Of a DNA stretch of 64,000 nt, positions 5,828-50,315 are shown in pieces. Position numbers and translations under genes: made by a program. How positions within the stretch are numbered: position 1 is the stretch's first letter; each line of letters starts with the position of its first letter. Location of the stretch: the IMG/VR virus record IMGVR_UViG_3300037840_000041, positions 1-64,000 of that record; one strand, given 5' to 3'. The notes under the pieces were generated by a model, which was given only the letters and a program-made list of their open reading frames with translations, had not been told where the DNA came from and searched no databases. The DNA is from a virus.

Positions 5828-6081
5828 CACTCCACTGTTGCACGGCGCCGACGTTTCTCTTTCGCAGTGGCACGCAATCCCAAGCGACCGCTATCGGAGA
5901 ACCGCCGGCACCATTCGTCGAATTCATCTTTTGTAAGCGAGTATCGTTCCAGCGCGCTCTCTAATGAGATCATGCCTCCGCGCACAGCTAGAACGATGTA
6001 TTCTCTATGCCGCGAGCACCAATTCTTCAGGTCGCGCGGCGGCAGTGCGATAATGTTTCCGTGGCTATCCCTGACAGTCAC
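5827..6081 (-). CDS. SciP-like (DUF1153) HTH regulator
   Basis: 84 aa. The core VLAVRGGMISLESALERYSL, then EEFxxW-like DEFDEWCRRF and GLRATAKEK, follows the SciP pattern (AVRGGLLSLEEACRRYTLT.EEF..W......GLRATR). SciP in Caulobacter binds DNA and represses CtrA-activated genes. Here it lies inside the head operon, overlapping protease stop and scaffold start, so it would be made late unless it has its own promoter. The C-terminus is Lys/Arg-rich. A phage copy could adjust the host cell cycle or late transcription; that part is inference. Confidence 0.75.
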   Translation of the reverse strand: MTVRDSHGNIIALPPRDLKNWCSRHREYIVLAVRGGMISLESALERYSLTKDEFDEWCRRFSDSGRLGLRATAKEKRRRRATVE

Positions 6082-7157
6082 GGAATCTCCATCGACATCG
6101 ACTCGCCGCCGATCGAGAACTCGGGCAAGCGGCCGGCCTTGTGCTCAGCCCACACCGCAGCGTCATCGATCTTGTATCCAACCATCCACCCCGACACTTC
6201 CTGACCGTGCTGATTCTTGAGGCTGAGCGTGTAGCCGTGCTTCAGATAGGCCGCGCGCTTCTCGTCGGTGATCACGAAGGACTCAATCAGCCTGCCGGTG
6301 CCGGTGATCTTGTGCATGTGGCCATGATCGCGCGCCTCGAGCACGTAGTCGTAGACCGCATCTTCCAATTCCTCGGTTGGAATCACATCGTTTTGCTTGT
6401 CAATGATCAGCTTGCCGTCCGCTTCAGCAGTGGACGCCACACCGAATATCATTTGGCGATCGGCATCCGCGGATTTGTTGAGCATCGTGACGGGCATCGT
6501 CCAGTCTTTCGCCAGCGTCTCATCTTCACCTGAGAGCTTGCAATATTTGCAGTCGATCGACGTTTCGCCGTCGAGTAATGATGCAGCCGCGCGATGATGA
6601 CCATCCGCGATATAATTCTTGCCGTCGTTGCGAACCACAGTCGGCAGCTTCGAATAACCGTTGGCCTGCATGTCCGCGACCTTCTCTGGCGAGACGCGCG
6701 GCTGCATCGCGACCAGCGACTTGATCGGGACCTTCCGGGTCGGCAGATCGTCGGGGTTGGTCAGTGCGGCGAAGAACTTGCGGGATTGCTCTGGCGGTAT
6801 CTTGTCGAGCGCCTGGGCATCATATGGGAACGGCGTGTGCGCGCCGCCGTCCGGGTGCGGCTTCAATGCTGGCGCGCCGCTCTTGCCGATCTCGGTGAAA
6901 GCATTCGCGAGGTGAGCGTGTATATGCAGCGGAGCAGACGAAATTATCTCGTCGAATCCCTTGATCGTCGAGATCGGCTCTTCCTCAATCACCTCGGTAA
7001 ATGTCAGCGGCTTGCGCTTGGGCTTCTTGTCGTTGCCGAGCGATGTGGCTACGTGCACATCGCCGACCGTGGCCATGTCCTTCGCCAGCGCCGAATTGAA
7101 ATCCGGGTCGCGGTTCATCAGCGCCAGCGCTTCGGCGCTCAAAGTCATCTGGTTCAT
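6078..7157 (-). CDS. ParB-like domain fused to XkdF-type prohead protease
   Basis: 359 aa from ATG 7157, chosen because it overlaps the upstream stop (ATGA) and has AAGAGG in front; the open frame continues upstream but there reads through another gene. Residues about 140-215 are ParB/Srx-like (VPIKSLVAMQPRV, YIADGHHRAAASLL). The C-terminal 130 residues follow the XkdF phage protease pattern (IFGVASTAEADGKLIIDKQ, DHGHMH, a GWMVGYKI strand, ending PEFSIGGE). The role is maturation of scaffold and head. The N-terminal 60 residues contain VGDVHVA, identical to the capsid N-terminus. Confidence 0.75.
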   Translation of the reverse strand: MNQMTLSAEALALMNRDPDFNSALAKDMATVGDVHVATSLGNDKKPKRKPLTFTEVIEEEPISTIKGFDEIISSAPLHIHAHLANAFTEIGKSGAPALKPHPDGGAHTPFPYDAQALDKIPPEQSRKFFAALTNPDDLPTRKVPIKSLVAMQPRVSPEKVADMQANGYSKLPTVVRNDGKNYIADGHHRAAASLLDGETSIDCKYCKLSGEDETLAKDWTMPVTMLNKSADADRQMIFGVASTAEADGKLIIDKQNDVIPTEELEDAVYDYVLEARDHGHMHKITGTGRLIESFVITDEKRAAYLKHGYTLSLKNQHGQEVSGWMVGYKIDDAAVWAEHKAGRLPEFSIGGESMSMEIP

Positions 7158-7387
7158 GCTGCATGCCTCTTGCTGGCGTGCACGCGACGCGAACGGGATT
7201 TCGCGCGCATCGCTACGCGCGGAGAGAGACCGCTCTTCTTGCGATCCCATCCGTGATGTTGCTTGCCTCGGCGAATGAATATCGGCGCGTCGATCTTTTG
7301 CTTTATCTGCAGCGGACCATGTTCTCCGAAGCTCAGCGCCGCCATCGCGGCAAATGCTGCTTTTGCCAGATAAGATTGCTTGTACAT
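7154..7387 (-). CDS. Small basic protein, unknown
   Basis: 77 aa from ATG 7387, which overlaps the stop of the minor head gene (TGATG) and has AGAGGA eight bases ahead; the stop overlaps the protease ATG. The N-terminus has a short hydrophobic helix (AKAAFAAMAALSF) and the C-terminus is very rich in R and K. No family recognised. The tight coupling on both sides supports it being translated. Confidence 0.55.
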   Translation of the reverse strand: MYKQSYLAKAAFAAMAALSFGEHGPLQIKQKIDAPIFIRRGKQHHGWDRKKSGLSPRVAMRAKSRSRRVHASKRHAA

Positions 7388-8460
7388 CACGAATCCTCTT
7401 CTGCAGGAATGAGGTCGATATTTGTTTCGTAAGAAATCGTACAACGACACGCGGGATGAGTACCTGACGGCGGATCGTCAACTGGGCCGTCATCGGACTG
7501 GAAATCTTCACGGAGCCCAACTCCGTTAGGATTGTTTTCGACAATGGAGAGACAAAGTGGGCAGACCCTTTCGTCCATCGCGATTTGCCAGAAGCGGGTC
7601 ACCGCTTCAGCCGGCATCACACCACGATCAACCGCTTGCGTGTAGCCCTCTCGCAGCCCGGTGTTGCCGGCGCGCAATGATTCAGTGCGCGCGATCGTGT
7701 TGGCGCGGTAGTCGAGATAATTCTCCAGATACGCATCGACTGCCTTGTCCATGAATTCATCGGACAGGAAGTCGCCGCTGTCGATCGCGTCCTGTATGTC
7801 GGCATCGAGCGTCGTATCGCGAAGTGCCCTTTGCAGCGCATTCGAATCAAGCGACTCGAGGTCGCGGCGATAGTTGGCAACGGCCTGCGCCTGGTTGGGT
7901 GTCAGCGCGATCGTATCGCGGATGTTCTTGGCGATATCGTCAAAGCTGTCGCCTGCCCGAACTCCGTCCAGCACCACCGATGAGATCGTGGCCTTGGCCT
8001 GATCCGACAGATCGGTGATCAACCCATCGAGAATTTCGTGCAACCGCTTTTGCGTCTCCGGGTCGAAGCGGTCGAAGTTGAAACCGACATCGGTTGAGCC
8101 GGCGACATCCTTGCGGAATCCTGGCGGGCGATATCGCAGGCTCCGTCCCCTCAGTCTTGACCTGATCTCGCCCGCGCCATGCTCAGCTGCCTGCAGATGG
8201 AGATCGCCAAGATGGCCGATCGGCTCCTTGAGCACTTCTTTCCAATGAGCGAACGGGATGGCGTCAAATACCGCGCCCGCCTTCCCGCCCCTTTTCAGCT
8301 TTTCCGCGATCTCCTTTACCGGGACGATCAAGCCGAGATGCTTCAGCGCCAAATGAAACGACGCCTTGATCTTTTTCTCCTCACGCTCGGCAAGTGCTCT
8401 GATCGGATCGTCTTTGGCCTGCCAGCGCTCGACCGGCGTCAGCGCGCGGAGGCGCGCCAT
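7387..8460 (-). CDS. Minor head protein (SPP1 gp7 / Mu gpF family)
   Basis: 357 aa from ATG 8460. The C-terminus has the hallmark of this family: NTIARTESLRAGNTG, a Trp, DERVCPLC and PPSGTHPACRC, with Cys/His pairs that probably bind zinc. These proteins sit inside the head near the portal and help morphogenesis. It follows the portal gene after three small genes. The open frame extends to a TTG at 8565, but the extension overlaps a 38-codon gene and looks non-coding, so the inner ATG is preferred. Confidence 0.85.
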   Translation of the reverse strand: MARLRALTPVERWQAKDDPIRALAEREEKKIKASFHLALKHLGLIVPVKEIAEKLKRGGKAGAVFDAIPFAHWKEVLKEPIGHLGDLHLQAAEHGAGEIRSRLRGRSLRYRPPGFRKDVAGSTDVGFNFDRFDPETQKRLHEILDGLITDLSDQAKATISSVVLDGVRAGDSFDDIAKNIRDTIALTPNQAQAVANYRRDLESLDSNALQRALRDTTLDADIQDAIDSGDFLSDEFMDKAVDAYLENYLDYRANTIARTESLRAGNTGLREGYTQAVDRGVMPAEAVTRFWQIAMDERVCPLCLSIVENNPNGVGLREDFQSDDGPVDDPPSGTHPACRCTISYETNIDLIPAEEDS

Positions 8461-23991: not shown

Positions 23992-26516
23992 CAGAATACA
24001 CTCCTCGGCGGACCGCCAAAATCATCCTCGGTTTCGCCCGGCGCCAGGATCGGCTTCGCTGCCGGCTTAGCTCTAGCGATGGGCGGCCACTGCAAGCCCT
24101 TGCCGTAGACTCGCTTTCCGGTCGGCCAGACATAATGAAGCATCCTCGGTTTCGGATCAGTGTCAGTCGGGTCGACCATCGAGGCAACGCCGATCACCCG
24201 GTATGGGCGAAGGTCTTCGCGGAAGCGGCGCGTCCGCGCCTTGATCCGATTCCGATATTGTTCCTTCGTCTCGTCAAGTTCCTGCGGGTCGCTTTTTTTG
24301 TATTCGTTTCCAAGATCAGCCCACTGCACAACCCGCGTCACGCTCTGCGGCAGTTTCAGCGCGGCAGGCGGCGGCGTGCCCATTTCGTCGATCGCGCTGA
24401 GCAGCGCCTGGAACACCGCAGCATGGTTGACTGTCAGTGCGAAACCTTCCGGTCGGTCTTTGCGATTTGATGCCCCGGCCTCAGCTGCGGCGGTGGCGCT
24501 GACTGGATCGACAGAGACCATCGACGAGATATCGTCGCCATCTTCGTCGACGCCGATCACGACGCGATGAAGCACAAAATCAAACCTCAGGGTGTCATCG
24601 CCGTCGCGAACCTTGTCCGTGCTGATGCGGCGGACGACGCGGCCCTCATCGTCGCGCCGTTCCACTTGTTTCTTTTCATCGGAGTAGGACCGCTTGATCA
24701 GCAGGGCAACGTCGATGCCGTTAAAAAACTGCTCGTTGCCGCGGTGGCGGCCTTCCTGATTCGTATGGCCGACAATCCACAGCGGGCAGGTGGTGCCATC
24801 GCGAACGGCGCTGTAATTGGTCTGGATGCGCGCCACATCTTCGCTCTTGATCTCGCTCGAGCCGCGCGTTGCCGCGTTGTGGGTATCGATCACCGAATGC
24901 GAAAGCGGCAGCTTGAAATTGCGGGATATCTCGACGATCTCGGCGGCAACGCCCTTGGCGTCGTCTTCGCTGGCGTACAAACCCGGCGGCCGCGTCAGCC
25001 AGGCGAATGAATGAAGATCGGCGTGCGTCAACCCGTGGTATTGCATATAGGCACGCAGCCGGTTCTCGAATCCTTCGGAGCCCTCATAGGTCAGATAGAC
25101 AATCCCGCCAGCTTCGACTCGGCGGCCGCCGTAGTCTTTCCCGAAGTGAACATGCATGCACATGTTCAACGTCTCGAAGGTCTTGCCCGACTTGGTCGGC
25201 CCCATGATGAGCGTATCGATGTTTCGCGGGACCAAAAATTTTATTCGCCATGGGAACTGCCGGGCCGGCGCGTTCAGGTCGCGCGCGGTCTTCGCGCCAT
25301 ATCTCGACTTATAAGGCTCTGGCACCCACGGCTTCAGCGAGTCGACGATCTCCAGCAATCTCGCACGATCACCAGCTGCACCATCGCGCCAGTCCTTCAC
25401 GTCGCCCCGCTCCGGACACGACGGCCAGATTGTTTTGAAATTCAGCACGCGGACATTGCAGCCGCGATCTTTCAGCATCGGCGCGACCTTCGCGGTGCGC
25501 TCGGCCCCGGCACGCTTGCCGGTCTTTGGATGGGGCGGGTCGTTGTCCTCAAGGATCACAACGTCGGCAGCGCCGCGGAAAAACTCTGCCATGTCGGTCG
25601 AGAAATTGCCGGCGCCGCCGGTGTTCGATACCGCGAGCAATCCCCATTCTTTCAAAACGTCGACGTTGCCTTCACCTTCAGGCAGAAAAACAATGCGCTG
25701 ATCTTCCGGCGGCTCTTGTATCTCGTCGATCACGTCGTTCGCGTTGTAAAGCCAGTGATCGACATTGCCGGCCGCTTCGAATGTCCGCAACTCGTAGCCG
25801 CCCGTGGCCTTCTTCTCGTCGTCCGCACGGACCCAATCGCCGTCCTTCCGCCAGCGCAGAAATTCAAACGGCTGGCCGGTCTTCCGATCAATGAAGTCGA
25901 GAGCCCAAACGAACGTCCCATCATTGTCAGGTGATGGTCGGCGCTGACTCGGCTTCTTGAAGATCTTGCCGTTTTTATTTACCGCCCACGAGCCGTCCGC
26001 GAGCCTTTTTTGGAAGCGGACCGTTTGGTAGAGGACCGAATTGTCCGGCGCTTTGATGTCCCAGACTTGGACGATCTCGAGCTTTCCATCTGGCGGTGAA
26101 GCTTGCGCTCCATCACCGCTTTGAGGCCGATCTTCTCTAGGCGCGTCAAAATGTTCGCTTGCGCCGTTTCCAGATTTCCGACCTTGCGATTTTCCGCTTG
26201 AACCAGTTGAAGATGTAGATCGACCAGGTCGGCTTCTGAGTACGACGCCAGCCTCCTGCGCGAGGGTTTCGATCGCCGCGACTTTCGTGAGACCTGCGTA
26301 CCTCTCGACGAAGTCGAAAACATCGCCTGCTTTTTCGCCGCCATTGCCGAAGTCCTTCCATATCTGTTTTGAATTGTTGACCGTGAACGACGGGTTGTCC
26401 GCTACGACATACTCACTGCCGCGCTTCACCAACTTGAAGGTGCGCCCGACCACATCGGACAGCGTGAGCCGATTTTTTATCTCCTGAAGCTGTTCCCTGT
26501 TGGCGTCGAATGCCAT
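23991..26516 (-). CDS. Primase-helicase (Toprim plus RepA-like AAA ATPase)
   Basis: 841 aa from ATG 26516 (AAAGG ahead; overlaps the upstream stop). Residues 12-90 keep the frame of a CHC2 primase finger (NPSFTVNNSKQIWKDFGNGG, then GDVFDFVERYAGL) but lack the zinc Cys/His. A Toprim-like region is at about 270-345 (LPEGEGNVDVL, VVILEDND). An AAA_25/RepA-type ATPase follows with Walker A GPTKSGKT at about 439 and a strand IVYLTYEG. The C-terminal 150 residues are a separate helical part. It should prime and unwind at the origin; no polymerase gene was found. Confidence 0.8.
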   Translation of the reverse strand: MAFDANREQLQEIKNRLTLSDVVGRTFKLVKRGSEYVVADNPSFTVNNSKQIWKDFGNGGEKAGDVFDFVERYAGLTKVAAIETLAQEAGVVLRSRPGRSTSSTGSSGKSQGRKSGNGASEHFDAPREDRPQSGDGAQASPPDGKLEIVQVWDIKAPDNSVLYQTVRFQKRLADGSWAVNKNGKIFKKPSQRRPSPDNDGTFVWALDFIDRKTGQPFEFLRWRKDGDWVRADDEKKATGGYELRTFEAAGNVDHWLYNANDVIDEIQEPPEDQRIVFLPEGEGNVDVLKEWGLLAVSNTGGAGNFSTDMAEFFRGAADVVILEDNDPPHPKTGKRAGAERTAKVAPMLKDRGCNVRVLNFKTIWPSCPERGDVKDWRDGAAGDRARLLEIVDSLKPWVPEPYKSRYGAKTARDLNAPARQFPWRIKFLVPRNIDTLIMGPTKSGKTFETLNMCMHVHFGKDYGGRRVEAGGIVYLTYEGSEGFENRLRAYMQYHGLTHADLHSFAWLTRPPGLYASEDDAKGVAAEIVEISRNFKLPLSHSVIDTHNAATRGSSEIKSEDVARIQTNYSAVRDGTTCPLWIVGHTNQEGRHRGNEQFFNGIDVALLIKRSYSDEKKQVERRDDEGRVVRRISTDKVRDGDDTLRFDFVLHRVVIGVDEDGDDISSMVSVDPVSATAAAEAGASNRKDRPEGFALTVNHAAVFQALLSAIDEMGTPPPAALKLPQSVTRVVQWADLGNEYKKSDPQELDETKEQYRNRIKARTRRFREDLRPYRVIGVASMVDPTDTDPKPRMLHYVWPTGKRVYGKGLQWPPIARAKPAAKPILAPGETEDDFGGPPRSVF

Positions 26517-27634
26517 CAAGCACCTTTGCGAGAGCGTGGCCGCTCGATTCTATTCTTGGCGATGGCCACATATTTCGCGCTCAATTCTATCAACGTGGAT
26601 TTTCGACCGGTTGCGGCTGCGACGACTCCCACGGTGCACGAGCCGCCGAACGGATCGAGAACCCTGCCGCCTTCTGGACACCCAGCCTTGATGCACTTGG
26701 CCACAAGCGCTTCCGGGAACGTAGCAAAGTGAGCGGCCCTGTATGCTTGCGTCGGTATCGACCACACGTTGCGGCTATTGCGCGTCTTCAATAAATGACC
26801 GCTGATAGCTTCGTGAAACGAAGCGTTCGCCCGGATGCCGCTGCGCGGCTTCGCTGATTTTGGCGATACACCGGGCGCCAACTTTCTGGCTACTGGCACG
26901 CGGTCAATCAACATTCGGCTGTTTCGCCCAACCGACGACCTTGGATGGGTGTTCGGACTTACAGGCTCGGCAATCGCGCGCGCGTTATAAAAATATCGCT
27001 CGCATTTTGTGAGCAGCCAAACCTTCTCGTGCGCAACGGCTGGCCGATCCATGATTGATTCCGGCATCGCGTTGGGTTTGTGCCAGATGATCTCGCTGCG
27101 AATCCACCAGCCATCATCCTGCAGGGCGATAGCCAGTCGGTTTGAAATCATGCACAGGTCTTTTGGTTTCAGATAATCGCCAGCGACCACACGACCGCCG
27201 CTGTCAATACGGCACTGCCGATCGGCAGCAACAAACTTCCCGCGCGGCGTACTGTGCATCGGCTCATAGATCGGGCCGACGGTTGAAAACGGCTTGTCTC
27301 GGAACGTTCGGTCATCATTTCCCTTGGCCTTCGTGTCCTGCGCGCTTCGGCCGTTCGGCGCAGCAGCGTAGCAATCACCGTAGTTGAGCCATAGCGTCCC
27401 CTCGGGCTTGAGAACACGTCTAACCTCGCGCAGAACTTCCACGAGCGCTGCGATATGATCGAACAGCGTGCGCTCCGATCCCATTTGCCCGCGGATGCCG
27501 TAGTCCCTCAGCCCCCAATATGGTGGCGATGTGACGCAGCAATCGAAGGAGTTGTCGTCCATACATCGCAACGCGTCTAAGGCGTCCCCTGTTATTATCT
27601 CGACCGCGCCACCGCGTAAAAGAATGCGCTTCAC
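26516..27634 (-). CDS. DNA methyltransferase (SPPYW type, N4-cytosine/N6-adenine)
   Basis: 372 aa from GTG 27634, with AGGGAG five bases ahead and a GTGA overlap with the upstream stop. Catalytic TSPPYWGLRDYG at 35-46 and SAM motif LDPFGGSCTVG near 326 give beta-class order. The 280 residues between hold a large target-recognition part. The SPPYW form is frequent among N4-cytosine enzymes. It is the fourth methyltransferase of this leftward block. Confidence 0.87.
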   Translation of the reverse strand: MKRILLRGGAVEIITGDALDALRCMDDNSFDCCVTSPPYWGLRDYGIRGQMGSERTLFDHIAALVEVLREVRRVLKPEGTLWLNYGDCYAAAPNGRSAQDTKAKGNDDRTFRDKPFSTVGPIYEPMHSTPRGKFVAADRQCRIDSGGRVVAGDYLKPKDLCMISNRLAIALQDDGWWIRSEIIWHKPNAMPESIMDRPAVAHEKVWLLTKCERYFYNARAIAEPVSPNTHPRSSVGRNSRMLIDRVPVARKLAPGVSPKSAKPRSGIRANASFHEAISGHLLKTRNSRNVWSIPTQAYRAAHFATFPEALVAKCIKAGCPEGGRVLDPFGGSCTVGVVAAATGRKSTLIELSAKYVAIAKNRIERPRSRKGA

Positions 27635-28530
27635 GAAAGCTCCCTCAAGCAAAACCCCATTTTCGGAATTTCTTTCATCTGAAGGCCGATGCTGACAAGC
27701 TTCGGGTTTAACACCGAGACCATGCCGATCAGAAAATCACGCGCCGGGATTCCGGGCTGGCGCTCGTTCTTAAACGCGTGGCCCATCAATCGGCTGTAAT
27801 CGAGGAATCCGCTGTCGATGATCACGCCCAGCGCGCTGACGACGCGCCACTCCTTGTTGAGCAATTTGATCTCGCGGCCCTTGTGTTCGAAATGCCGTTC
27901 GCCGTTCGACGCGGCGGCAATCGGTGCTGGCGGCTTTGCCGCGTTCGGCGCTTTCTTCTCGGCCACCGACACGCTCGGCACCGCGCCCGCCGCCTTTGGC
28001 AGGCCGTATCGTTCATGCGGCAGCTTTTCGATCACGCCAGTCTTGGCCGCGTAGAACAGCGCCGAGGTCCAGGCCGGTGGCGCCGAGGGCCAGTATTTTT
28101 CGCGCACGAAAGCCAAGATGCCGGGTCCAGTCAGCGGGGTTCCCGCAGCGCTGATCGCCTCGACCGCCAGATCGGAATTTGACGGGATGCCCTCGGGACG
28201 GCCCTTGCTTGGCCGGCCACCCATGTTGGGCCTTTCCTGCGCGGCGGGCGCGGTGCTGGGCGCTCCAGCCGGCTTTGGGGCTACCGAAGCCGGCTTTAGC
28301 TCAGGGCGCGCCGGCGGCGCTACGGCCGCATGTGGCGGGGCCTTTCGCGGCGGCTCCAGCAGCTTTGACGGCTCTTCGCGGAGCATATCCCCAACCTTCG
28401 TCAGAATTTCCGCCCGGGCATCCGCGACGCCGCGCTGATATTCGGCCTGCATGAGCTTGATGAGATCGTCAAATCCGATGGCGTTGCAGATTTTTTCGAA
28501 CAGGTCGTCATCGTCAGGGTTATCGGTCAT
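27631..28530 (-). CDS. Hypothetical protein with winged-helix-like segments
   Basis: 299 aa. A helical N-terminus (LIKLMQAEYQRGVADARAE) is followed by a Pro/Ala linker (65-105), then a segment TGPGILAFVREKYWPSAPP with a wing-like end, which resembles HARE/wHTH domains, and a C-terminal 90-residue domain. The linker-separated layout suits a DNA-binding regulator. No family assigned. Confidence 0.5.
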   Translation of the reverse strand: MTDNPDDDDLFEKICNAIGFDDLIKLMQAEYQRGVADARAEILTKVGDMLREEPSKLLEPPRKAPPHAAVAPPARPELKPASVAPKPAGAPSTAPAAQERPNMGGRPSKGRPEGIPSNSDLAVEAISAAGTPLTGPGILAFVREKYWPSAPPAWTSALFYAAKTGVIEKLPHERYGLPKAAGAVPSVSVAEKKAPNAAKPPAPIAAASNGERHFEHKGREIKLLNKEWRVVSALGVIIDSGFLDYSRLMGHAFKNERQPGIPARDFLIGMVSVLNPKLVSIGLQMKEIPKMGFCLRELS

Positions 28531-47016: not shown

Positions 47017-47427
47017 TTAGGCGCTGCCGACGCGGCTATCATCCATGACTGGAGTCGCACGGTTGATCCAGGCGGTTTCCTCCGCTGGTGTCATCTCGTT
47101 GGCACCGACGAGGACTCGGGTCACATTCTCGACGTGCTTGTCGTAGCTGGAGTGGGAGACAGCCTGGGCACCTTCCGACGCGACCTCTGGAGCGGCAGCA
47201 CCGGACGAAGCTACGAAGTCCTCGATCGCCTTAGCCAGTTTGGGAGCTTCGGCCTTTGCCGCTTCGAACGCGGATGGTCCCTCCTTGGCTGCCGCCAGGA
47301 TCACTGGCGCCGCCCGCTCGAGCTGCGGTTCATACTTGACCGCCATTGATACCAGCGGCGCGGCGTCCGGATGAAAATAGGCCAGCGCCCGCAAGGCGCC
47401 GTCGATGATCTGACCGTGAAGCGACAT
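47017..47427 (-). CDS. Helical hypothetical protein
   Basis: 136 aa, Ala/Glu-rich helices (ALRALAYFHPDAAPLVSMAV, EAAKAEAPKLAKAIEDFV). Preceded by TTGGAGGAATCC. It was next to the 49602 gene before the IS inserted 28 bp upstream of its start, which may have cut it off from upstream transcription. Not recognised. Confidence 0.55.
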   Translation of the reverse strand: MSLHGQIIDGALRALAYFHPDAAPLVSMAVKYEPQLERAAPVILAAAKEGPSAFEAAKAEAPKLAKAIEDFVASSGAAAPEVASEGAQAVSHSSYDKHVENVTRVLVGANEMTPAEETAWINRATPVMDDSRVGSA

Positions 47428-47447: not shown

Positions 47448-47455
47448 AAAAATAA
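47448..47455. repeat. Target-site duplication, left copy
   Basis: AAAAATAA directly outside the left end of the IS element, identical to 49543-49550. Eight bases is the size expected for the IS1595 family. Confidence 0.9.
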
Positions 47456-47488
47456 GGGAATTATATACATGACTCCCTTTTCCACTGT

Positions 47489-48427
47489 TCATTCGCATAA
47501 CCCGTAGCTGGAGGAACAACCGACATGCTTTTCCAGCAATGGCAATTGGAACTGCATCCCGCCGCGCGACGTGCTCGCCCACTCGACCACCTTGCGGATT
47601 CCCCGCTTATCAAGATGGGCATCCCGGTCAGGATCAGAAAAGAACGATGCGGCCCGGCGCTTCGCCGCAAGGGCCACAAGGCCCTCCCATTCGGCAATCC
47701 GAGCGACGTGCTCGGGGAAGCGGTTGGCTATTTCCGCGATCTCGGATTTAGCGCAGTTAATGCAGGGCAGGCAGCCAACCCGGCTCATGCCCATGGAGTA
47801 GAGCGGATTCAGCTTTATGCCCCGAGCGACCACGAAATCGACCGTCTGTTGCGCGGTCCAATCCACGATAGGCCGATAGCAATAGAGGCCATCCGTTGTG
47901 TGCTCAATCCGCTTCGCGAACTTGCGCTGTTGCGATTCGTCGCGCCGGACGCCCTGCCACGACCAAACCTTGAAGCCATCCTTGACGAAGCCATACTGAA
48001 AATCGATCAGCGGGATTGTCTTGAGTTCCTGGGTGCAGAACTGCGCTTTCCGGGACGGAAAGCGCCCCTTCCAAAGACACAGATCAAGGAACGGATTTCC
48101 AGTCGGATGCAAGATCGCCAGCGCGCGGCGTTTGGCTTTGTTGGTCCAGCGAATGCGGCGACCGTCTCGCCTGCCGATACGGGAATCCCGCGCGATGAAA
48201 ACACGCTTGATGGCGATCTCGGCGCTAAAATCGGCGCGGACGGTTTCGATTGTTCGGCCCAGCGCCTTCGGGAGGTAGTCCCGAACGTAATCATAGGTGT
48301 ATTCGTGCTCGTTGCCGGTATCGGCAAAGACCAGATGCGCGTCCGGGAATCGATCAAGGGCAAGCAACGCGGTCGCAGTGGAGTCTTTGCCACCGGATAC
48401 CGAAACGATATGGGCACGCTTTTGCAT
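47489..48427 (-). CDS. CysH-like PP-loop protein (PAPS reductase family), IS passenger
   Basis: 312 aa. Begins with SVSGGKDSTATALLAL, the ATP-binding PP-loop, then VFADTGNEHEYTYDYV; further on CTQELKTIPLIDF, VRRDESQQRKF, PIVDWTAQQ and RVGCLPCINCAKSE. This follows phosphoadenosine phosphosulfate reductase-type proteins of phages and mobile elements. The Cys cluster could hold an iron-sulfur centre. Carried inside the IS downstream of the transposase. It may affect sulfur transfer or DNA/RNA modification; substrate unknown. Confidence 0.82.
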   Translation of the reverse strand: MQKRAHIVSVSGGKDSTATALLALDRFPDAHLVFADTGNEHEYTYDYVRDYLPKALGRTIETVRADFSAEIAIKRVFIARDSRIGRRDGRRIRWTNKAKRRALAILHPTGNPFLDLCLWKGRFPSRKAQFCTQELKTIPLIDFQYGFVKDGFKVWSWQGVRRDESQQRKFAKRIEHTTDGLYCYRPIVDWTAQQTVDFVVARGIKLNPLYSMGMSRVGCLPCINCAKSEIAEIANRFPEHVARIAEWEGLVALAAKRRAASFFSDPDRDAHLDKRGIRKVVEWASTSRGGMQFQLPLLEKHVGCSSSYGLCE

Positions 48428-48431
48428 CGGG

Positions 48432-48551
48432 CTATTTGGCCTTCCGCGCTTTGCGTTGGCGCTTTTTGGCGCTCTTGCTCACGGGTTTCGGGCGATACCG
48501 CAGCACCACGTCTGCGATGGCGTCGAGAACCTTGGGCGTTTTCGGCTTCAT
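48432..48551 (-). CDS. Short Lys-rich peptide inside the IS
   Basis: 39 aa (starts MKPKTPKVLDAIADVVLRYR; Lys/Arg-rich end). Its ATG overlaps the transposase stop (ATGA) and its stop lies just before the CysH-like ATG. Tight coupling suggests that it is translated. Role unknown; possibly an accessory of transposition. Confidence 0.5.
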   Translation of the reverse strand: MKPKTPKVLDAIADVVLRYRPKPVSKSAKKRQRKARKAK

Positions 48552-49471
48552 GCGATCAGCGCCTTATAAGTCAGGCGCTTGCCCGCAACGCCGTCAATGA
48601 AGCTGCCGAGCCGTTCCAGCGTGTGGCGAGCTACGTTGCCCTCATTCAACCGGAAGGCAAATTCATCGACGTAGCGGCCAAGATGCTTTGGGCTGGCATG
48701 GTGGTAGACGCCGATCAGCCCGCGCTTGAGAACCGCGAACACGGACTCGACGCTATTGGTCGTCACGCCGTCGCGGACGTATTCGCCGCCGCTGTGGTTG
48801 ACGCTCTCGTGCTCAAAGAACAAGCCGCCCATCGCGTGATAAACGGCGGCTTCGTCCGTGTGCAGCACCGAGCCGACTTCGACGTTCTGCACGATCACGT
48901 CTTGGATGGTCTGCAAATCGGTAGCCTCGATTTTGACCGCCTTCACGCGTCCGCCCTTGCCGCGCTCCTTCATGCCCAGCACGGCGGTTTTTCCGACCGT
49001 GCCGCGCCCCTGTTTCAGCTTCTTGTGCTCGTGCTTGTTCGCCTCGATGCCGCCGACGTAGGTTTCATCGATTTCGACCAACCCTTGCAACATCGTCATG
49101 TCGCCGCCGCAGGCTTCCCGCAGCCGGTGCAGGACGAACCAAGCCGACTTTTGCGTGATGCCGATTTCCTTGGCGAGTTGCATCGAGGATACGCCCTTGC
49201 GGGCCGTCACAAGCAGGTACATCGCGTAAACCCATTTGTGCAGCGGAACGTGGCTGCGCTCGAAAATCGTGCCGGTGCGCACCGTAAAGTCCTCCCGGCA
49301 CTGGTTGCAGCGGTAGAAGCCGCCCTTGCGCGCCGTGATCCGGTCGCCCATGCCGCAGACCGGGCAGCGCGGCCCTTCCGGCCACAAGCGGCCCTCCAAA
49401 TAGACCCGCGCCGTCTCTTGATCTGGGATCATGGCGAACAACTCAAACGTCGAAATGGTGGACTTGGACAT
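48548..49471 (-). CDS. IS1595-family (ISXO2-like) transposase
   Basis: 307 aa. N-terminal zinc ribbon CPVCG and CNQC (residues 36-60), then the ISXO2-type DDE domain: EIDETYVGG (D-E), HTDEAAVY (D) and GVTTNSVESVFAVLKRG with the ARHTLERL end. The length is full and no frameshift is seen, so it is likely active. Lies between the terminal repeats of the element. Confidence 0.92.
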   Translation of the reverse strand: MSKSTISTFELFAMIPDQETARVYLEGRLWPEGPRCPVCGMGDRITARKGGFYRCNQCREDFTVRTGTIFERSHVPLHKWVYAMYLLVTARKGVSSMQLAKEIGITQKSAWFVLHRLREACGGDMTMLQGLVEIDETYVGGIEANKHEHKKLKQGRGTVGKTAVLGMKERGKGGRVKAVKIEATDLQTIQDVIVQNVEVGSVLHTDEAAVYHAMGGLFFEHESVNHSGGEYVRDGVTTNSVESVFAVLKRGLIGVYHHASPKHLGRYVDEFAFRLNEGNVARHTLERLGSFIDGVAGKRLTYKALIA

Positions 49472-49542
49472 GACCGATTTACCCCTATTTCACAGGCGAA
49501 ACATAGCAAATTTCACCGAGGTAGTAAAGTATATAATTCCCA

Positions 49543-49550
49543 AAAATAAA
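49543..49550. repeat. Target-site duplication, right copy
   Basis: AAAAATAA directly outside the right IS end; pair of 47448-47455. Confidence 0.9.
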
Positions 49551-49601
49551 ATCGGCGCCCGGAGCGTACCCCGAGCGCCGATCATGCGACAGCGGGAAAA
49601 T

Positions 49602-50315
49602 TCAGAAAAGCGTCTTCACCCCCGCCATGACGCGGTTCGTCTCCTTGACGCAGCCGCCGACGATCGCGACACCGATGCATTTCGCGGTGCTCGGGATCAG
49701 GTACTCTGCATAAGGCTCCATCACGATCCCATTGGAGAGCCTGATCTTGGTGCTCGTGCCGATGTCCAGCCCGAACATGATCTCCTGGAAATTCTGCAGT
49801 CCTAGCTTCGCGCCGACATCATCCCACGTCGGGGCCAGATAAATACTCGGGTTGGACGTCGTTACAGTGACACCTGCGGGGAGCGGATTGATCGACGGCA
49901 CCGCGTTCTGCAATTGCGACAGTCCCGGGATCGCGGCGATCAGTTGGTCGATCGGCATGCCGACGCCGAAGCGCTGACGCAGGAAGATCGGCCCGGAGAA
50001 CAGCGAGAGGCCGTTCGTGGTGCCGCCGTTGATGTTGTGGAAGTCGAAGTCGCCGTCGATGTACCAAAAGCCCACGGTCCCAACCGGGCAGGTCCACCCT
50101 ACATTGAGGCCGATCATCCCCTGGGTCATCTGGGTTCCGGCCACGGCGTTTGCGACCGCGCCCGTCGCGCCACCGGCGTCGACGCCGTAGTATAGCCCGC
50201 ACTTCGTTGTCGGGTATTTATAGGCCGTCGCCGGCGCCTTCGTCGGCAGATCAGACGCGGCCGCCGGCACCGCCATCAAAAACGCGGTGATCACCGCGCA
50301 AAGAATTCGTTTCAT
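49602..50315 (-). CDS. Outer-membrane beta-barrel-like protein
   Basis: 237 aa. A Sec signal peptide (Lys-Arg start, core to residue 16, cleavage near AAA-SD). The mature end SDLPTKAPATAY is like the start of porins in Bradyrhizobium and relatives. Alternating strands follow and the protein ends in Phe, as outer-membrane barrels do. It sits in the lysis region, in the leftward operon. A phage-borne barrel could change the host surface (superinfection block) or be a captured host gene; it is not needed for virion assembly. Confidence 0.7.
   Translation of the reverse strand: MKRILCAVITAFLMAVPAAASDLPTKAPATAYKYPTTKCGLYYGVDAGGATGAVANAVAGTQMTQGMIGLNVGWTCPVGTVGFWYIDGDFDFHNINGGTTNGLSLFSGPIFLRQRFGVGMPIDQLIAAIPGLSQLQNAVPSINPLPAGVTVTTSNPSIYLAPTWDDVGAKLGLQNFQEIMFGLDIGTSTKIRLSNGIVMEPYAEYLIPSTAKCIGVAIVGGCVKETNRVMAGVKTLF

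Follow-up and report, generated by a model that had tools for sequence, protein, structure and literature searches.

The stretch of DNA that we analysed (the window; 64,000 nucleotides, positions 1 to 64,000 of IMG/VR virus record IMGVR_UViG_3300037840_000041) belongs to a tailed phage, with terminase, portal, exonuclease VIII, RecT, tape measure and tail proteins recognised. Within it a single unit of 2086 bp (47456-49541) can be read from the sequence, in which the open reading frames for a transposase, a short peptide and a PP-loop protein all lie on the minus strand between inverted repeats; the phage's own 65.5-kb record contains one copy of the element. The features of the locus are:

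47017..47427, minus strand: next phage gene downstream, with 28 bp between its start codon and the element
47448..47455, no strand: target-site duplication AAAAATAA, copy 1, read from the sequence
47456..47477, plus strand: right end, 13-bp perfect repeat inside the ~22-bp conserved end (GGGAATTATATACATGACTCCC)
47489..48427, minus strand: 312-aa passenger, a PP-loop protein with a PAPS_reduct domain (phrog_424)
48432..48551, minus strand: conserved accessory peptide, 39 aa, found with the family peptide profile
48548..49471, minus strand: IS1595-family transposase, 307 aa (PF12760, PF12762, NF033547)
49500..49528, minus strand: possible promoter of the transposase or operon
49520..49541, minus strand: left end (GGGAATTATATACTTTACTACC)
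49542..49549, no strand: target-site duplication AAAAATAA, copy 2; read on the minus strand it is TTATTTTT, the T-tract in the terminator of the gene upstream
49550..49583, minus strand: 15-pair hairpin of the intrinsic terminator that belongs to phage gene 49602-50315; its T-tract is followed directly by the element
49602..50315, minus strand: next phage gene upstream

GGGAATTATATAC stands at one end of the element (47456-47468) and its reverse complement at the other (49529-49541), with 13 of 13 positions matching; these perfect repeats sit within imperfect terminal repeats of about 22 bp, and AAAAATAA flanks the unit on both sides, at 47448-47455 and 49542-49549. An earlier, sequence-only reading of this DNA had described the 13-bp repeats and the 8-bp duplication, both of which are directly legible, and had placed the end of the element at 49542, one base beyond the true end at 49541. 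It had also reported a full-length IS1595-type transposase, and the 307-aa protein does combine an N-terminal zinc ribbon with a DDE domain and matches PF12760, PF12762 and NF033547 above their cut-offs, the last at 197.5 bits where 75 would suffice. The 39-aa and 312-aa frames that it placed in one orientation inside the ends are indeed there, as is the distance of 28 bp to a phage gene (47017-47427). Together with the transposase, the inverted repeats at the ends and the 8-bp duplication of the target are those of an IS1595 element, and the PP-loop gene inside 47456-49541, unrelated to transposition, gives it the form of a passenger-bearing IS1595 element, or tIS.

The possible promoter combines a -35-like TTTACT (49523-49528) in the left end with a -10-like TATGTT (49500-49505) across a 17-bp spacer; the family left-end consensus reads TTGACT where the window has TTTACT. 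Because a sigma-70 threshold scan reported no promoter above threshold at the element, this candidate was judged by eye from the left-end comparison alone. The GC contents of passenger and transposase are near that of the phage, and base composition is thus uninformative on origin.

A transposase scan of viral contigs, which in IMG/VR are predicted viruses, returned 138 relatives, up to 91% identical, of which the best 80 were analysed as viral loci. With the end motif 85 units could be delimited, the window's included and some of them near-duplicates, ranging from 1433 to 3750 bp and bordered by an exact 8-bp duplication in 71 cases. Given that dozens of independent contigs show the same 12-bp ends and an 8-bp duplication around related transposases, the ends and duplication in the window are not the product of chance. 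The sequence-only reading was correct in describing an intact IS1595-family element with a passenger in a phage, but the element is not a one-off: it belongs to a mainly viral family in which the passenger varies. Terminase, portal, head protease, integrase and RecT/annealing families are found in the flanks of the viral loci.

Some loci hold further configurations of the same ends. In IMGVR_UViG_3300027986_000008 (L048, 1620-5963) two family elements are nested, each with its own 8-bp duplication. Units without a transposase, MITE-like or non-autonomous derivatives, were seen as a 285-bp form with the same ends and 8-bp duplications (L017, 6780-7064; also L315 and L335) and as a 736-bp form with the same ends, an 8-bp duplication and two small ORFs (L058, 8153-8888).

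When the same search patterns were run over 257 Gb of bacterial and archaeal genomes, 35 relatives were recovered, nearly all from metagenome-assembled genomes, against 138 in viral contigs; these are counts and not per-base densities. The comparison speaks against the proposal that an ordinary bacterial IS1595 element landed once in a phage or prophage, where its presence is incidental and its passenger neutral freight. That proposal draws on the passenger-bearing IS1595 elements known in bacteria (PMC5704250), on the integrases in the flanks, which imply that some of the host phages are temperate, and on family members on cellular contigs, some of them not obviously phage (L110, L124) and one (L126) adjoining ParA/ParB and replication genes. 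For the family of this last element, however, a close relative was present in 2 of 298 genomes, both already in our set and with one copy each, and much of the identifiable cargo is of phage type (PHROGs families); we therefore regard a chance bacterial visitor as unlikely. Among the 50,697 phage records of INPHARED there were only three distant transposase matches, at most 38% identical, and thus no cultured phage is known to carry this transposase. Plasmid relatives of the transposase were at most 45% identical, and the window's whole unit had no match in plasmids.

In the window the element inserted into the T-tract of the terminator of 49602-50315 (hairpin of -27.8 kcal/mol), which keeps its tail because 8 bp were duplicated; on the other side, gene 47017-47427 retains its start. 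Intrinsic terminators were considered as a general target and rejected: strong hairpins were found at 15% of sites and 8% of controls, the means were equal, and the association is limited to the window and a few others. Across the family, insertions avoid genes, 30 of 65 lying inside ORFs where 50.9 were expected (z -6.5, with crude ORF calls). Related phages with the empty window site, which the sequence-only reading had proposed to look for, were not found, because the proteins of both neighbouring genes are without relatives in the viral collection. Elsewhere, the element of L023 separates two phage genes that in seven relatives (L188-L193 and L232) are direct neighbours with no element; the short intergenic sequence differs in these, and the exact base of insertion therefore cannot be named. 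L142, a candidate empty site for L004, was rejected on finding the same element in it.

The structure of the family became apparent on alignment of whole units. The window element and L003 are 83% identical over positions 1-1058, comprising the left end, the transposase and the first part of the peptide; beyond 1058 nothing aligns until the last 41 bp (95%), and the same pattern of alignment, gap and realignment was obtained against L004, L006 and L007. In such comparisons homology ends within or just past the peptide and returns in the last 23-41 bp. What lies between can be unrelated even when the transposases are nearly the same: those of L006 and L008 are 99.0% identical, and the one element carries a PP-loop protein and the other a nuclease-like protein (NERD, sub-threshold), from which it follows that cargo changes faster than transposase. 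Likewise the transposases of L017 and L018 are 97.4% identical with unrelated cargo, and within the trio L017, L018 and L020 (95-97% identical) L018 carries a NADAR protein, and L017 and L020 each have a C5 methyltransferase.

Each of the 83 elements in which the peptide was detected had cargo, for which there are three slots: one separating the left end from the transposase, one separating the transposase from the peptide and one separating the peptide from the right end. Distinct PP-loop proteins are carried by the window element, L003, L004, L006, L011, L035 and L070, and by similarity L272, and C5 methyltransferases by L017, L020, L039, L076, L080 and L122; other methyltransferases are a phrog_757 protein in L067, a Dam-like protein just under the cut-off in L010 and an N4/N6 enzyme in L030. 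The single element at L080 4924-7030 encodes both a type II restriction enzyme (403 bits) and a C5 methyltransferase, likely a complete restriction-modification pair carried by a transposon, and L076 combines a methyltransferase with an HNH protein. An ASCH protein (L009) and a P63C protein (L128) were also recognised; many of the remaining cargo ORFs are without a recognised family, some of the small calls being crude.

In L014/L015 and L004/L006 units that share their cargo occupy different sites, which indicates that cargo travels with the unit; these relatives, together with the duplications, are indirect signs of mobility. The window's own passenger was not found in another family element. 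That it is instead a resident phage gene, beside which a bare insertion sequence inserted with a fortuitous right end, is a proposal that similar PP-loop genes lacking these ends, frequent in phages, might recommend, but it is already contradicted and has next to no probability, given a right end conserved over 31-41 bp with relatives bearing other cargo and bordered by the matching 8-bp duplication, and a family in which bare elements were never seen among the 83 with a detected peptide.

The host phage of the window has DNA-methyltransferase matches of its own at 26516-27652 and 6078-7544 (phrog_67 at 218 bits; phrog_1530 weaker and partial). By eye, the cargo of L021, L022, L107, L110, L113 and L125 appears to consist of an N-terminal membrane segment followed by a soluble domain; these proteins gave no Pfam match in L021, L022, L107, L110 and L125 and no PADLOC match in L021, L107, L110 and L125.

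The window's passenger is a member of the PP-loop PAPS_reduct superfamily: PF01507 matches at 83.5 bits against a cut-off of 22.5, phrog_424 is matched as well, the sequence contains SGGKDST, and the fold is nearest to PAPS and APS reductases (Z 15-16), followed by the sulfur transferases TtuA, NcsA and LarE. The sequence-only reading had termed it CysH-like, and the family assignment stands, but CysH is too specific a name, as the scores for TIGR02057 (37.1 against a cut-off of 254), TIGR00434 (41.6 against 165) and NF002537 (59.9 against 154) are far under the curated cut-offs and the best matches in the defence library are SspD (79 bits) and BrxP (59). These same values argue against a true PAPS/APS reductase brought by the element to raise host sulfur assimilation during infection, as does the finding of no other sulfur-assimilation gene among the families searched in the window, where part of the ORFs was scanned. 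Besides the PF01507 match and the fold, such an enzyme would account for the alignment of the passenger's GVRRDES with the GLRREQS stretch of CysH and for conserved cysteines near the C-terminus; on balance we consider it improbable.

The SspD match (9.5e-23) covers only part of the protein (119-249), the match to DndC is weaker (1.7e-4), and no ssp or dnd partner genes were found inside the element. Across 18 relatives of the passenger SxGKDS, FPSRKAQFCTQ, RVGCxxC and a C-terminal GLC are invariant. By analogy with TtuA, cysteines 131, 219 and 222 could bind an Fe-S cluster; two further cysteines, 304 and 311, lie in a tail modelled with low confidence. The passenger is most likely an SspD/CysH-like PP-loop ATP-pyrophosphatase performing sulfur or nucleotide-activation chemistry, and a role in nucleic-acid modification appears more likely than one in sulfate assimilation. 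Its nearest phage relatives, 45-58% identical, have none of these ends. The sequence-only reading had proposed that the element shows one route by which such a gene enters a phage genome, and had named relatives without transposase and ends as the observation that would tell against it; for the gene family such relatives exist. The element can bring the gene, but as one entry route among others and not the main one.

The sequence-only reading had also noted the 39-aa coupled peptide, which proved to be more than incidental, since a basic peptide of about 40 aa was detected by profile search in 83 of the 85 elements. In the window its reading frame shares 4 bp with the end of the transposase gene, and it consists of the motif LDAIADVVLRYRPKP and a basic tail, modelled as two helices with a proline-rich turn between them and the second helix basic (pLDDT 90). 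Mismatches by codon position of 0.27, 0.19 and 0.59 indicate a protein under purifying selection. No model in Pfam, NCBIfam or PHROGs matched the window peptide. It is absent around the five plasmid IS1595 transposases that we checked and present in L115, L119 and L130. In L048 the transposase of the outer element, the second at this locus, continues in frame at its C-terminus into the peptide, and in L039, L076 and L128 the cargo protein has the peptide as an N-terminal fusion; a fusion in L080 that looks similar by eye was not accepted, as the profile gives it no support. We propose a transposition accessory role, in which the peptide would act with the transposase.

Taken together, we favor the reading, with a probability of roughly 0.8, that the unit is an intact, probably mobile IS1595 tIS from a mainly phage lineage with a constant frame and exchangeable cargo. 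The DDE transposase would recognise the ~22-bp ends (GGGAATTATATACwTGACTCCC) and insert the element into A/T-rich, mostly intergenic sites with an 8-bp duplication. Transposase, coupled basic peptide and cargo, in one orientation, are probably co-transcribed. The frame is made up of the transposase-peptide module, in which the peptide may act with the transposase, and the terminal ~25-40 bp, with cargo, here the SspD/CysH-like ATP-pyrophosphatase of a phage group, in one or more of the three slots and often exchanged. We infer that the element is active and that its cargo may be of benefit.

The family appears to be a vehicle through which accessory genes are shuffled between phages. A stronger form of this proposal is a phage-specialised IS1595 lineage, always loaded, with three slots and a dedicated peptide that would assist the transposase in transposition or cargo exchange. 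Such a lineage would be a general means of transfer for PP-loop proteins, methyltransferases and restriction-modification pairs among phages whose hosts belong to different phyla; this we advance tentatively, at somewhat under even odds. If the phage-rich distribution and quick cargo swap hold true, the family would be a concrete and testable vehicle for such genes, and the conserved peptide, if its role is as proposed, would be a new transposition accessory protein. There is also a warning here: what is annotated as an auxiliary metabolic gene of a phage may in fact be part of a transposon that the phage carries.

Several known systems resemble parts of this element. The PP-loop ATP-pyrophosphatase is shared with SspD and DndC of DNA phosphorothioation, but the window element has a single-gene passenger with no ssp or dnd partners inside. 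Phage proteins of phrog_424 (phage 186 Orf84, and those of Serratia phage Parlo and Acidovorax phage Acica) are of the passenger's family, 45-54% identical, but in the 19 viral loci examined genes of this family are not bounded by the element's ends. PLSDB contains plasmid-borne IS1595 elements, among them Roseomonas L138 and Pelobacter ISPepr2 (L139), whose transposases are at best 36-45% identical; L138 resembles ours in having an 8-bp duplication and two passenger ORFs, but the plasmid elements lack the conserved peptide and have their own ends, GGGGATTATG and CGGAACTATC.

According to PMC8136500 phages seldom carry insertion sequences, and the literature that we searched yielded no description of phage-borne IS1595 cargo elements, which is not proof that none exists. 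IS1595 elements with passengers have already been described (PMC3129680, PMC5704250), among them tISCpe8 and MTnSag1/tISSag10 (Siguier et al. 2009, as cited in those two papers), and share with the present family an IS1595-type DDE transposase, terminal inverted repeats and a passenger inside the ends. As far as the descriptions in these sources go, the present family is set apart by its occurrence mostly in phage contigs, by cargo in all of the peptide-bearing elements, by the swapping of cargo between near-identical transposases, by its three slots and by its peptide of about 40 aa. In this comparison, which ISfinder subgroups lie outside, the family, a phage-rich, always-loaded and cargo-swapping IS1595 lineage that shares a peptide, looks like a new form of a known type of element.
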